Assembly (NCBI RefSeq): GCF_026000115.1
Contig: NZ_AP026867.1
Span: 5,382,001-5,446,000 of the forward strand
Direction: 5' to 3'
Origin: Aureispira anguillae
GTDB taxonomy: Bacteria > Bacteroidota > Bacteroidia > Chitinophagales > Saprospiraceae
Length of the DNA: 64,000 nt
The notes under the pieces were generated by a model. That model made no database searches. It worked only from the letters and a program-made list of their open reading frames with translations, and was not told the origin of the DNA. Below are positions 44,988 through 62,931 of the stretch, one piece after another. The stretch's first letter is position 1, and each line of letters opens with the position of its first letter. The translations under genes were made by a program, and so were the position numbers.

Positions 44988-45198
44988 GCTGATTTTTTAC
45001 TTTTTTGAGGATCAACAAAGATAGGCTTTATTTTTATTTAGACAAAATAAAAATAACAACACAAATAAGTATACCTCCAAAAGCATAAAGCAGCCCTTAT
45101 TAGCCCATAAAAAATTAAACCTGTCAAGTAGGAACACTAGCTTCATTCATTCGCAATAGCTGAACAAACACAAACCACCAAAGTTGTAAAAGGAAAAA

Positions 45199-45590
45199 GC
45201 AACTACAAGCCTATAAGCCGAATCCTGTACTCCACTGAAGTAGAGCCTCTATCATTTATCTAGACCAACAGTCACCTGTTGGTTCTATCTGCCTACCCTC
45301 CAGCTAGAGCGAGCAACCCTATGAATTCCGTAGAATTCGTACTGGTATACATGGCATTTCAACTCACAAGGTTTATCCCCTATTGATGTTGCCATCAATA
45401 GCCGTGCGCTCTTACCGCACGTTTTCACCCTTACCCCAAATAAATTTAGGGCGGTTATTTTCTGCGACACTTTCTGTATTCCAAATAAATTTGAAACCCC
45501 ATCCGTTAGATGGTGTGATGCTCTGCGTTGTTCGGACTTTCCTCGTGTTTGATACAATCAACCCCGCGATAGAGCAGCTTGCAGTTGCAA
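45199..45590 (-). ncRNA. rnpB: RNase P RNA (bacterial type A)
   Basis: The minus strand shows the conserved blocks of RNase P RNA in order: GAGGAAAGTCCGAACA near the 5' end (about 45545-45530), CAGAAAATAACCGCC (about 45464-45450), GGTAAGGGTGAAAACGTGCG, GGTAAGAGCGCACGG, and the 3' AGGATTCGGCTTATAGG. The closing helix P1 is GCAACTGCAAGC (45588-45577) with GCTTGTAGTTGC (45210-45199), one G-U pair, followed by a U-tract. It processes tRNA 5' ends. Ends are placed at P1, within a few bases. Confidence 0.95.
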
Positions 45591-58599: not shown

Positions 58600-59685
58600 C
58601 TAAACCTTCAAGCGATCTGTCATTGCCAACAAATAATAATCTAGTAGCACTAAGGCAGCCATTCCTTCCACTATAGGTACTGCTCTAGGCACCACACAAG
58701 GATCATGTCTTCCTCTTCCTGTTATCGTTACCACTTCACCTTTCAGATCTACCGATTGTTGGTCTCTCATAATCGTTGCAACAGGTTTAAACGCTGTTTG
58801 AAAATAAATATCCATCCCATTAGAAATTCCTCCTTGGATTCCTCCAGAATGATTGGAGCTTGTCTTGATCCGTCCATTGTCATTAACAAAAGGGTCATTG
58901 TGCTCTGATCCTCGCATCGAGACCCCTTCAAAACCAGAACCATATTGAAATCCTTTACAGGCATTAATACTCAACATGGCTTTCCCTAATTCAGCGTGTA
59001 AGCGATCAAAAACAGGCTCTCCCAATCCCACAGGGCAGCCCTTAATCACGCAACTCACGACTCCTCCAGTGGTGTCTCCTTCTTTTTTTATTGCCTTAAT
59101 ATAAGCCTCCATTTCCTTAGCAATAGCAAGATCAGGACAACGAACAGGAGTTTTTTCGACCAATGAAAGATCAAGGCTCTTATAATCCGAACGAATCGAC
59201 AAAGGTCCCACCTGACTCACATAAGCAGTAATCTGAATGCCTTTTTGAGCTAATATTTGTTGTGCAATAGCTCCTGCTGCTACTCTTGCCGCAGTCTCTC
59301 TAGCTGAAGAACGCCCCCCTCCCCTATAATCTCTATTGATGTACTTTTGGGAGTATGTAAAATCAGCATGAGAAGGTCTAAATCGATCTTGAATATGAGA
59401 GTAATCTTTGGTTTTTTGATTGGTATTAGCAATGAACAAAGTAATTGGCGTTCCTGTTGTTTTCCCTTCAAATACCCCTGATAAAATATCAAATTCATCA
59501 GCCTCTTTTCGTTGGGTAACAATTGCAGATTGTCCTGGTTTTCGTCGATTTAGTTGGGACTGAATATAAGCTCTATCCAACTCAATTCCTGCTGGACAAC
59601 CATCTATGATTACCCCAATACCTCGACCATGAGATTCGCCAAAGGTGGTAATTTTAAATAGTTTCCCAAATGTATTGCCTGCCAT
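58600..59685 (-). CDS. aroC: Chorismate synthase
   Basis: 361 residues with [40 protein letters not shown] and [19 protein letters not shown], all AroC signatures. It converts EPSP to chorismate. It is packed 5 bp after aroB in the attenuator-controlled phhA-aroB-aroC operon. Confidence 0.97.
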
Positions 59686-59690
59686 AATGT

Positions 59691-60764
59691 TTAAATCTTA
59701 ATCCCCTGAGTTAATTGATTGTAATAATTTAAGGCTTCTAAAATAAGTTCATCTTCTGCATGAACATTAATTTTAAACGTCCCTATTTCTTTTAATAAAG
59801 TAAAGCAAATTTGGTTGTGCTCATTTTTTTTGTCTTGTCGAATAAGCGCTAAAATAGCTGTCGGGTCTAAATTTGTTAAATCATAGCTAGGATACAACCG
59901 TAATAAATAGGTGGTAATTTGGGCTAAATCTGTTTCCAATAAACCTGTTAATTTCCAACTCAGATAGCTTTCTGTAAGCATTCCAATAGCAACGGCCTCT
60001 CCATGTAACAATGGTAACTTGGTTTCCCAACTCAAACTTTCTACAGCATGCCCTATGGTATGACCAAAATTAAGGCTTTTCCGAATATTTTGTTCAAAAG
60101 GATCTTGTTCTACAATTTTCTTTTTAATCGACAAAGAATGCGCTATAATAGGTTCCCATACTAAGTTTGCCAAATTGGAAGAAGTCAACAATTGGCTAAA
60201 ATACCTACCATCCTCAATCAAAGCATGCTTAACAATTTCTGCAAAACCACTGTATAATTCATTTTGAGGCAAAGTATCAAAAAAGTCGCTTAACAAATAG
60301 ACGGCTTTGGGGTTCTTAAATAAACCTATGCTATTTTTAACCAGCGCAAAATCTATCCCTAATTTACCACCTATAGATGCATCCACTTGTGCCAGTAAGG
60401 TCGTTGGAATTTGTATAAAATCCATTCCACGCTTAAAAGTACTAGCGCAAAAGCCCCCCATGTCGCCAATCACCCCTCCGCCTAAGTTAAGTAAAACAGA
60501 CTTACGATCGGCTTGCTGATTCATCAATGCAGTCCATATTATTTGGCAAGTTTGAATATTTTTGTGTGCTTCCCCTGCTTCAATTGATATGATATTTAGC
60601 TCATAATCCATCAACGCTTTTTGCAAAATTGGTAAACAATACTGCTCTGTATTGGTATCAACTAATACAAAAATTTTGGAATAAGCTCCTGTCCTTAATT
60701 GTTCTTTTAATTGAATAAATCCTTGATCCTGAAATTGGATGTTATAACCTTGTAATGAAATCAT
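59691..60764 (-). CDS. aroB: 3-dehydroquinate synthase
   Basis: 357 residues. [21 protein letters not shown] and [16 protein letters not shown] bind NAD and substrate, and the metal-binding His lies in [12 protein letters not shown] and [11 protein letters not shown]. It makes 3-dehydroquinate from DAHP. Its ATG overlaps the phhA stop (TAATG), showing coupling. Confidence 0.97.
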
Positions 60765-61543
60765 TATGCCTTTATTAATAATTCATCAAAATTAAATTTC
60801 TGCCCATCTGCAATGATGATTTCCGACTCTACAGCTTGCTTTATCCGCTCTTCTAACTGGGGCAAACTATGGTACAATTGTTCGTAAGATGCTGCCACAA
60901 AATATTGTGCCTGAAACTTGTCCTTAATATAAGGGGTCTCCAAGATACGATCCAAATCAAATGCAAAATGCTGTGGCTCTGTCCCCAATGAATAAACCGA
61001 TTCTCCTGGAGAAGACAAAATCCCTGCGCCATAAATTTTAACTTGGTGGTCTTCTTTAATTAATCCAAATTCTACCGTATACCAATAAATCCTAGCCATT
61101 AATTCTACGGCTGTTGGCGAGTCTATATATTTTAAAGCAATTTGGCTCAAACCATTCAAAAAACCAGCAAAATAAGGCTCACTCAACAAAGGAACATGAC
61201 CAAAAACATCGTGAAACATGTCTGGTTCCTCAATATATTTTAATTGAGCCAAACTACGCATCCATGTGGTAGCAGGAAATTGTTTTTGAGCTAATAATTC
61301 AAAAAATGGTTTGTTATCAATAATCCCAGGAACAGCATAAACTTGCCATCCAGTCAATGCTTTTAGTGCTTCATTGACTACGGTAAAACGAGGAATTCGA
61401 TTGGGTATAAATTGAACCGTTTTGATTCCTTCCAAATAGTTTTTTGTTGCACGGGTAGCCAGTATTTCTATTTGTTCATTATACATAAGCTCCCATACTT
61501 GATGGTGTTCGGAGGTGTATTGATCGTACTCTTGTCGCATCAT
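60764..61543 (-). CDS. phhA: Phenylalanine 4-hydroxylase-like aromatic amino acid hydroxylase
   Basis: 259 residues, the size of monomeric bacterial PhhA. The iron triad is H111 and H116 (EPDMFHDVFGHVPLL) with E158 (IYWYTVEFGL). YGAGILSSPGE follows as in the family. It makes Tyr from Phe with tetrahydropterin and O2. It is the first structural gene after the aromatic attenuator and is coupled to aroB, so Tyr supply and chorismate supply share control. Confidence 0.92.
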   Translation of the reverse strand: MMRQEYDQYTSEHHQVWELMYNEQIEILATRATKNYLEGIKTVQFIPNRIPRFTVVNEALKALTGWQVYAVPGIIDNKPFFELLAQKQFPATTWMRSLAQLKYIEEPDMFHDVFGHVPLLSEPYFAGFLNGLSQIALKYIDSPTAVELMARIYWYTVEFGLIKEDHQVKIYGAGILSSPGESVYSLGTEPQHFAFDLDRILETPYIKDKFQAQYFVAASYEQLYHSLPQLEERIKQAVESEIIIADGQKFNFDELLIKA

Positions 61544-61574: not shown

Positions 61575-61606
61575 AAATCCTAGCCCAAAAGTGGACTAGG
61601 ATTTTC
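61575..61606 (-). terminator. Attenuator terminator of the phhA-aroB-aroC operon
   Basis: Minus-strand stem AAAATCCTAG / CTAGGATTTT (61606-61597 with 61584-61575) with a 12-nt loop and a U8 tract lies between the leader peptide stop and phhA. Its 5' arm and loop (61601-61586) can pair instead with 61659-61671 in the leader, see that entry. Confidence 0.85.
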
Positions 61607-61637
61607 AGATTATGTATACCGTTTATTATTGAATGGT

Positions 61638-61727
61638 TAACAACTACATAATGCGTCCCTGTCCACTTGGTCGAAAAACCAGTAGAAATAAGTAGCATTA
61701 TAATAATATAAGTGAGTTGTATTCATT
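61638..61727 (-). CDS. Aromatic leader peptide of the phhA-aroB-aroC attenuator, 29 residues
   Basis: The frame starts at ATG (61727-61725) and stops at TAA (61640-61638). Residues 7-18 read YYYNATYFYWFF: five Tyr, three Phe and one Trp in 12 codons. It starts about 13 nt after the predicted transcription start. The distal part (61659-61671, minus AAGTGGACAGG preceded by CC) is complementary to the 5' half and loop of the terminator (minus CCTAGTCCACTT, then GG), with one bulged A. Stalling at aromatic codons should free this segment and prevent termination. The peptide itself has no other likely role. Confidence 0.85.
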
Positions 61728-61746
61728 GATTTATTTTGTTCTCAAA

Positions 61747-61777
61747 CAAATGTAGGCTAGCTAATATAAAAAAACAA
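61747..61777 (-). promoter_or_regulatory. Promoter of the aromatic operon
   Basis: The minus strand shows a TTG (61777-61775), a 20-bp spacer and TACATTTG (61754-61747), matching TAnnTTTG. The start site would be near 61740, just before the leader peptide. Confidence 0.65.
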
Positions 61778-61938
61778 GTTTTTGAGTCGATTATTTTTTT
61801 TTCTCCAATAGATTAAACCTTTTGATTAAAAACAGCTCTAATAAAATGAGCGCTCAAAACAAGACAATTGATCTTGAATTGGAAGTTGAGATTAAGCTTC
61901 CTACTTATAAATTTCTAATAAAAGCAACAAATAAAAAT

Positions 61939-62931
61939 ATGAAAAAGTTATTATGGGTAGTAATGGGTTTGTGTTTTTTAATTAACCAATCTCTAGCACA
62001 AGCACCCCACCAAGGGCGCAAAGATCACAAACCTTTATTGAGTAAAGAGGCTAAACAGGAACTACAAGAGTTTCACAAAAAAGAAATTTACCCCATCAAA
62101 AAGGCAACTCACGACCAATTCCTAAAAAGTTTAAGTCAAGATGATATTGCTTTTTTAGAATCCAAGCGTGCAGAAAGCAAAACCTTGCACCAAGAGGCTC
62201 AGGCATTGCGCCAAGAAATGAAAGCATTAAGAACCAGTGGAAAAGATAGAAAAGAAATACGAGAAGAAATGAAAACTGCTTTTGAGCCCATTAGAGAAAA
62301 ACGAAAAGCCTTTATGGAATCTATGAAACCTTTTATGGAACGAAATATGGAGGTCGTCAAACAATCAATGGAAACTCTAAAGTCGCATCGAGAAACATGG
62401 AAAACTCAAAAAAGAGAAATTCTAAAAAAGTACTTATCTGAGGAGGAAATAGCAAAAATGGAAGCGCACAGAAAGAAAAAGCAAGAACGACATGCCCAAC
62501 ATGCTCCAAAGAAATCGGCACACAAAAAAGGAGGAAAAGCGGTAAAATTTGTCTTGTGGGATGGGGAGTTCAAAACGCCTAGACATGGCAAAAGAGGGAG
62601 AAAGGAATGTAAAACAACTCAGGAGAAAGGAAATCAATCCGAAAAATTGTCTACCACAAAAATCGACAAGAACATAACTCTGAGTAATTATCCAAATCCT
62701 GCGATTACACAAACTACTATTTTGTTGACCACTAAAGAAGAAGCTAAAACGGTAAAAATCATCATCAACGATGCAGATGGAAAACAAGTTTGGATGAAAC
62801 AATATGCTAAGCTAAATGCTGGAGAACATAAGATAGATGTTAATTTGCGTAAATTTGCGAGTGGACAGTATTTTTATACGGTAAGTATTGGAGAACAATC
62901 TATTACAAAAACATTGATCGTTAATCAGTAA
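61939..62931 (+). CDS. Exported helical (Spy/CpxP-like) protein with T9SS sorting domain
   Basis: 330 residues from the ATG at 61939 (MKKLLWVVMGLCFLINQSLAQ, a clear signal peptide); an ATG 39 codons upstream would bury it. Residues about 30-200 form charged helices with LSQDDIAFLESKRAESKTL and LSEEEIAKMEAHRKKK, resembling LTxxQ-like Spy/CpxP helices. A Lys/His-rich linker follows. The end is a type A sorting domain (LSNYPNPAITQTTILL...GQYFYTVSIGEQSITKTLIV). The role is unknown. Confidence 0.75.
   Translation: MKKLLWVVMGLCFLINQSLAQAPHQGRKDHKPLLSKEAKQELQEFHKKEIYPIKKATHDQFLKSLSQDDIAFLESKRAESKTLHQEAQALRQEMKALRTSGKDRKEIREEMKTAFEPIREKRKAFMESMKPFMERNMEVVKQSMETLKSHRETWKTQKREILKKYLSEEEIAKMEAHRKKKQERHAQHAPKKSAHKKGGKAVKFVLWDGEFKTPRHGKRGRKECKTTQEKGNQSEKLSTTKIDKNITLSNYPNPAITQTTILLTTKEEAKTVKIIINDADGKQVWMKQYAKLNAGEHKIDVNLRKFASGQYFYTVSIGEQSITKTLIVNQ

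Follow-up and report, generated by a model that had tools for sequence, protein, structure and literature searches.

Background

The aromatic attenuators of the Proteobacteria, namely the trpL, pheA and pheST leaders, carry Trp or Phe codons that serve their own branch of the pathway, while the leaders of ilvGMEDA and thrL are multivalent and hold codons for the amino acids of linked pathways. The leader that we describe here, which precedes the genes phhA, aroB and aroC in Aureispira anguillae, shares with the first group the short ORF with codons for the product and the mutually exclusive antiterminator and terminator. It differs from them in that it mixes Tyr, Phe and Trp codons before phhA-aroB-aroC, in that it is found in a member of the Bacteroidota and in that it lacks a Shine-Dalgarno-like sequence. 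With ilvGMEDA and thrL it has in common that a single leader contains codons for more than one amino acid, whereas the related Tyr+His leaders described below join pathways that are unrelated (phhA with his genes).

Attenuation in the Bacteroidota is not new. Table 1 of PMC2864571 lists the Bacteroid-trp RNA (RF01692), which like our leader is a cis-regulatory candidate from this phylum; it gave no match at the gathering score in the analyzed stretch, at 12 phhA relatives or at five trpE and two pheA loci of the genus. An attenuator was also predicted before the B. thetaiotaomicron operon pheA>hisHb>aroA-aroQ>tyrA (PMC1173090, Table 7), that is, aromatic attenuation in the same phylum but for a different operon and, in that table, with the leader codons not given. 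Hints at attenuation by leader peptides upstream of amino acid operons were reported for F. psychrophilum (PMC9723704), and sORFs reminiscent of leader peptides for B. thetaiotaomicron (PMC7366714). Moreover, Fig. 6b of a five-genome study (PMC6429828) presents candidate uORFs that contain Phe and Tyr and precede shikimate genes; they resemble our leader as aromatic-containing uORFs in that position, but in the available part of that paper no Bacteroidota are named, phhA does not figure and no matching of codons to operon is described. The main text of a paper on his genes across the phylum (PMC8305728) does not contain the words phenylalanine, tyrosine or hydroxylase. In the literature, judged mostly from titles and abstracts, we found neither a phhA attenuator nor a Tyr+His leader, and subscription-only surveys may hold predictions for Bacteroidota. 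An earlier note on this DNA considered the arrangement possibly undescribed in the phylum; that holds for a phhA attenuator as far as these sources go, but not for attenuation as such (PMC2864571, PMC9723704, PMC1173090). What was not found in these sources is the variant, i.e. phhA leaders with operon-matched codons.

The analyzed stretch, referred to as the window, comprises 64,000 nucleotides of A. anguillae (contig NZ_AP026867.1, positions 5,382,001 to 5,446,000), and coordinates without further label are positions within it. Considering the leader ORF, the terminator, the covarying antiterminator, the conserved layout and the match between codons and operon, the region is best explained as a ribosome-mediated transcription attenuator with a multivalent codon set, a reading to which, on the strength of these sequence features, we assign a probability of roughly 0.88.

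The leader unit upstream of phhA

The three genes are arranged head to tail on the minus strand and each scores over the cut-off of an NCBIfam equivalog model, which bears out the gene set named in the earlier note. The first, phhA (60764..61543), encodes a phenylalanine 4-monooxygenase (TIGR01267, 276 bits, cut-off 264.75) and is clearly related in sequence to bacterial phenylalanine hydroxylases of solved structure (PDB 1ltu, 218 bits). It is followed by aroB, encoding 3-dehydroquinate synthase (59691..60764; TIGR01357, 338.5 bits, cut-off 305), which overlaps the phhA stop, and by aroC, encoding chorismate synthase (58600..59685; TIGR00033, 478.4 bits, cut-off 212.2).

Upstream of phhA, and again on the minus strand, a promoter-like site, a leader ORF and a terminator follow each other in that order. 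The leader ORF (61637..61726, 29 codons) reads MNTTHLYYYNATYFYWFFDQVDRDALCSC, and its residues 7-18, YYYNATYFYWFF, contain the Tyr, Phe and Trp codons, exactly as had been claimed. The putative antiterminator segment 2 (AAGTGGACAGGG, 61657..61668) lies inside the ORF, 4 nt past the last aromatic codon, and is assigned on the basis of pairing and covariation. Segment 3 (TCCTAGTCCACTT, 61589..61601) has two alternative partners: segment 2, giving the antiterminator, or segment 4, giving the terminator. The duplex of segment 2 (61668-61657) with segment 3 (61601-61589) has 12 pairs and one bulged A, close to the pairing of 61659-61671 with 61586-61601 proposed before, and its RNAduplex energy is -16.9 kcal/mol as compared to a shuffled mean of -7.2 (z -4.3). 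The intrinsic terminator, recognized by sequence, is a hairpin at 61575..61604 (formerly placed at 61575-61606) with the 5' arm AAATCCTAGTCCA at 61604-61592, the loop at 61591-61588, the 3' arm at 61587-61575 and a T-run at 61577-61570; it ends 31 nt upstream of phhA. The adjoining gene at 61822-62931 runs divergently on the plus strand, and the terminator therefore does not form its 3' end. The protein encoded by this neighbour has a sorting domain for type IX secretion.

The promoter-like site, TTG-N20-TACATTTG (61747..61777), is of the Bacteroidota -33/-7 type and fits the consensus published in PMC7366714. The match noted earlier is thus in line with the published pattern, but its frequency is at chance level (3 matches in the window versus a mean of 2.5 in shuffles), and the motif was rejected as stand-alone evidence. 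An exact TAnnTTTG occurs at the promoter position in three of the seven aligned rows of the genus (the window, L005 and L009). A Shine-Dalgarno-like sequence is absent before nine of the ten leaders checked, including that of the window; classical Shine-Dalgarno sequences have been described as lacking in Bacteroidota (PMC7366714).

A structured 5' region with a terminator before a gene could also belong to a riboswitch, a T-box or a protein-binding leader, in which case the small ORF would be incidental. Yet no Rfam family reached its gathering score at the window leader, at 12 phhA relatives or at seven trpE/pheA loci of the genus, and the T-box models in particular gave no match at that score at the window leader and the 12 phhA relatives. 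Six sub-threshold matches fell in the leader region; none was a T-box and they were dismissed as chance. In addition, the genus alignment contains, by eye, no conserved block besides the promoter, the ORF and the helices. We therefore regard this explanation as extremely unlikely. The only Rfam match in the window at the gathering score is an RNase P class A RNA at 45198-45585 on the minus strand (245.9 bits).

Conservation and covariation within the genus

The ribosome-mediated attenuator is supported by the comparison of the phhA upstreams of related genomes, a check that the earlier note had proposed and that sustains the architecture of the trp/phe type it suggested. In the window's genus, to which Aureispira sp. 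CCB-QB1 belongs (L037, a contig stretch also denoted L003), phhA was found in eight of the nine genomes searched, and seven of these eight, the window included, have the unit of leader, terminator and covarying antiterminator. At this locus two of these genomes are nearly identical. Besides MSTATKYFNTSYYYWYFILSGQDVLCRCL, found in these two genomes, the genus leaders are MNRTARYWNTSYYYKYALLSGQDVLCPCL, MNKITHTYYTDLYCYWDCFSKARRQEALCML, MLNRKEIYRTNIYYWSHFGSKSE and MQAMTFTYRNAFYFYWFYNHKISGQEAVCNGHL. In all seven carriers phhA is followed by aroB and then aroC; in G005 phhA is split over two contigs, the second of which holds aroB-aroC. The eighth genome (G007; L007 is the same locus as L039, L039:2500-4020) has phhA-aroB; a leader was not visible, nor was aroC found after these genes. 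A MAG with the title Aureispira sp. Cli_1 (L046, with the same upstream as L010), which is classified elsewhere than in the genus, carries a leader with Tyr codons (..AYYCYYYTP), and aroB was not found behind its phhA.

The pairing between segments 2 and 3 is kept in 63 of 66 cells when the six genus leaders are aligned in a gap-free register of 11 pairs, the three unpaired cells being found one each in L005, L006 and L009. Numbering the pairs from 0, two-sided changes are seen at pair 2 (TA or CG, three leaders each), at pair 3 (GC to AT in L005) and at pair 4 (GC to AT in L006, with GU in L005), and pair 6 has a one-sided change from CG to UG in L006. Since only six related leaders are available, this covariation is to be taken as support and not as a formal test. 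The antiterminator duplex energies of the genus range from z -2.3 to -5.0 relative to shuffled segments. A conserved 1:2 hairpin was looked for by eye in the genus leaders and was not established.

In TnaC the ribosome is arrested by a nascent peptide that senses a free amino acid, and a leader peptide acting in this way, responding to free amino acids instead of charged tRNA, could also underlie the present arrangement. Indeed, the stretch that follows the aromatic residues is similar in part among members of the genus (GQDVLC, RQEALC, GQEAVC, DRDALC). However, this stretch is encoded by the antiterminator segment and the adjoining nucleotides, and this may account for the similarity; the order and number of the aromatic residues vary while codon identity follows the operon. 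Moreover, arrest by a free amino acid would be expected to act in the opposite direction. Peptide arrest thus appears very unlikely.

A wider family of phhA leaders

The design of leader plus terminator is not restricted to the window's genus. We assembled 105 distinct phhA upstreams, consisting of those of the best 80 of 577 relatives (named genomes), those of the genus and those of the best 30 of a family sample, and searched them for a small ORF with three Tyr in five residues, or four Phe/Tyr/Trp in eight, that has a terminator just behind it. A leader with terminator was detected in 38 of the 105; as the sample was built from best matches, the set represents the nearer kin of the window PhhA. 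Among the named genera that bear a leader are Roseivirga, Marivirga, Fulvivirga, Hymenobacter, Nafulsella and Echinicola. A His-aware pass over the 67 uncalled upstreams added two leaders (L100 and L106) and also the genera Cesiribacter and Algoriphagus; a Tyr-rich candidate in L093 that ends 380 nt before phhA was not counted. For three loci (L008, L042 and L044) the upstream stretch was too short.

Both Tyr and Phe codons are A+T-rich, as is the region, and an aromatic frame might therefore arise by chance next to a terminator that is constitutive or belongs to another transcript. The same detector called only 2 of 525 dinucleotide shuffles of the phhA upstreams and 1 of 423 upstreams of other mechanical ORFs of at least 150 aa from the 80 named loci. 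Together with the covarying antiterminator and the divergent orientation of the neighbouring gene, these controls make chance the least credible of the explanations that we considered.

Over the 38 calls the antiterminator duplex has a median z of -2.4 and falls below -2 in 22; in the other 16 the duplex is weak, as for example in L010 (0.2) and L074 (+1.3). In a sample of 392 genomes of the phylum, the upstreams of the 68 best matches, single-domain PhhA by look, were inspected (one of them, L169, offers only about 200 nt). The unit was found in 6 of 17 upstreams from within the class and in 0 of 51 from outside it. The design is thus frequent in one part of the phylum, with no instance seen in the others.

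Leader codons and operon content

For the codon counts, three of the 38 calls (L053, L065 and L072) were dropped because the terminator was judged to belong to a gene further upstream, and each distinct leader peptide entered the count only once, which left 33 leaders. As read from these sequences, the codon set of the leader matches the content of the operon. Leaders before a phhA without aro or his genes mostly contain runs of Tyr. The codon clusters of the 27 leaders without aroB-aroC total 123 Tyr, 12 Phe and 0 Trp, versus 17 Tyr, 9 Phe and 5 Trp in the six leaders with aroB-aroC, all of one clade. Trp is present in the cluster of five of these six and in 0 of the 27 (Fisher p 2.5e-5, kinship ignored). 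The search for aroB used 4 kb of 3' sequence for most named loci, 1.5 kb for most others and less than 1 kb for a few, and within these limits aroB was found behind phhA only in the window's genus. The earlier note had called the mixture of Tyr, Phe and Trp codons seemingly unusual. The mixed form was seen with aroB-aroC, in one clade; the leader is not a one-off, considering that Tyr leaders precede phhA at many other Bacteroidota loci.

The second association concerns histidine. At 16 loci with distinct upstreams hisH lies behind phhA, including those of Roseivirga, two of the four Marivirga, Echinicola, Algoriphagus, Nafulsella and Cesiribacter. In two of them phhA heads a run of hisH-hisA-hisF-hisIE (L075:4001-7590 and L115:3950-7702, with hisIE confirmed in L075 only); NCBIfam models identified HisH, HisA, HisF and HisIE in L075 and HisH, HisA and HisF in L115, and the remaining hisH loci were called by tblastn with one HisH. 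Just upstream in L115 there are ORFs that, by eye, resemble trp genes and a DAHP synthase gene. The clusters of leaders with hisH read YYYHYYH, YHYHYYH, HYYYYYH and similar. At least two His codons occur in 13 of 13 leaders with hisH as compared to 0 of 22 without (L100 and L106 included), where the threshold of two was set after seeing the data; with a threshold of at least one His the numbers are 11 of 11 and 5 of 22. Two loci with hisH behind phhA (L083 and L108) yielded no leader, the His-aware pass included.

These counts treat the leaders as independent, which they are not. On the PhhA tree the hisH label needs four changes, two of which are forced by well-supported branches, and the aroB-aroC label needs one. 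In terms of independent pairs this amounts to two well-supported ones for hisH (four in all) and one for aroB-aroC; all are concordant, and their number is too low for significance to be attainable. Because the aroB-aroC form constitutes one clade, the gain of Trp and Phe counts as one event.

The cleanest case of codons following the operon is Marivirga. The leaders of M. aurantiaca and M. atlantica, which have hisH, read ..NHYYYYHLF.. and ..NHYYYYYHLF.., and in M. sericea and M. arenosa, where another gene lies behind phhA (by eye a candidate protein-L-isoaspartate methyltransferase), the otherwise similar leader reads ..NTYYYYYQ... The association is not absolute. The leader of L096 (FYNTYYFFYF) combines Tyr and Phe, with neither aroB nor hisH found behind phhA; one His each occurs in the leaders of L027 and L055, which lack hisH; the 27 leaders without aroB-aroC include the 12 Phe mentioned above; and L005, L006 and L009 have Phe codons while prephenate dehydratase was not found in those genomes.

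Folding of the leader RNA

Folding with and without a stalled ribosome had been suggested as a check. In full-length RNA at equilibrium the terminator is favoured in nearly all folded states, so that the switch must be kinetic; full-length folding was uninformative as a model of it and was replaced by folding of truncated transcripts, ending before segment 4 is made, with the ribosome footprint held open. Of 37 leaders, the 31 with a duplex of -10 kcal/mol or better were used and six with a weak duplex were left out.

With the ribosome stalled at the first aromatic codon, the predicted probability of the antiterminator exceeds 0.5 in 29 of 31 leaders and is 0.81 in the window; with the stall at the last aromatic codon it does so in 23 of 31, with 0.45 in the window. 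For a ribosome at the stop codon the outcome varies with the footprint. If 15 nt upstream of the P site are covered, the antiterminator stays at or below 0.5 in 21 of 31 leaders (two of six in the genus; window 0.59), and with a footprint of 20 nt it does so in 28 of 31 (five of six in the genus; window 0.00). Stall and stop states are both right in 19 of 31 leaders with 15 nt and in 26 of 31 with 20 nt; neither footprint explains the plenty state of L009. In this model the state of shortage is well explained and the state of plenty depends on the ribosome footprint, the weakest step being the blocking of the antiterminator by a ribosome that has completed the leader (two of six genus leaders with 15 nt). 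Possible ways out would be a second ribosome behind the first, or a kinetic competition during the passage over segment 2.

The truncated RNA without any ribosome forms the antiterminator in five of the six genus leaders (0.70-0.95), as would suit a general sensor of translation or growth rate that allows readthrough whenever the leader is little translated and in which codon identity is of minor importance. With such a sensor, however, there would be no need for the leader codons to correspond to what the operon makes, and the naked RNA forms the antiterminator in only 11 of the 31 well-paired leaders. This explanation is, in our opinion, as unlikely as peptide arrest.

Proposed mechanism and physiological meaning

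For the preferred multivalent attenuator the following course of events is conceivable, in which leader translation, ribosome stalling, early termination in vivo and the amino acid response are all inferred. RNA polymerase would start near 61740, as suggested by the -7 box, and a ribosome would translate the 29-codon leader. When the charging of Tyr-, Phe- or Trp-tRNA falls short, the ribosome would stall in the YYYNATYFYWFF stretch, leaving segment 2 free to pair with the emerging segment 3, and phhA-aroB-aroC would be transcribed. When all three are plentiful, it would reach the end of the leader and interfere with segment 2, upon which segment 3 would pair with segment 4 and transcription would end at about 61570. 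The leader may formerly have been a Tyr attenuator of phhA, as in the relatives, and may have gained its Phe and Trp codons in the lineage in which the operon took up aroB and aroC.

The presence of Tyr codons makes sense if PhhA is the tyrosine route. No TyrA domain (PF02153) was found over the cut-off in any of the nine genomes of the window's genus (G000-G008), where all 14 controls were positive; one of the nine has a weak match of 21.8 bits against a cut-off of 26.5. Judged from this gene content, PhhA is probably the tyrosine route in the genus. Prephenate dehydratase was found in only three of the nine, and the other genomes may need external phenylalanine, so that several members of the genus may be phenylalanine auxotrophs. 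In Echinicola vietnamensis, fitness data indicate that the hydroxylase makes tyrosine (PMC7311316, GapMind), and in E. arenosa (L115) phhA and hisHAF are preceded by a Tyr+His leader. The leader codons argue in the same direction, namely that PhhA makes tyrosine and does not only degrade phenylalanine, in agreement with these E. vietnamensis data as given in PMC7311316.

On the whole we think it likely that the Bacteroidota possess one movable attenuator design, the codon set of which is retuned in the course of evolution to the amino acids that the operon supplies: Tyr where phhA stands alone, Tyr+His with his genes behind it and Tyr+Phe+Trp with aroB-aroC. If so, a shortage of any one of the amino acids would derepress all genes of the operon, those of an unrelated pathway included, which amounts to a logical OR written in codons. 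The leader codons would then be a readable record of what the cell senses, and cases such as Marivirga with and without hisH would be natural experiments on the retuning of an attenuator as genes join or leave an operon. Moreover, a working leader-peptide attenuator in a phylum described as lacking classical Shine-Dalgarno sequences (PMC7366714) would make the coupling of transcription and translation in Bacteroidota testable.

Leaders at pheA and trpE in the genus

Leaders with terminators also precede other aromatic genes of the window's genus, where they serve as internal controls and speak in favour of the attenuator reading. Two tandem Phe-rich units of leader and terminator lie before pheA (prephenate dehydratase) at both loci inspected (L120:1041-1460 and L118:1081-1500). 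Their duplexes have z values of -2.4, -3.7, -3.6 and -1.3, and those of two trpE leaders -4.0 and -1.1, so that two of the six (-1.3 and -1.1) are weak. The trpE leader, WWWTTSLRWRE or a close variant followed by a terminator, was present at all six loci inspected (L121-L126), two of which are nearly identical.
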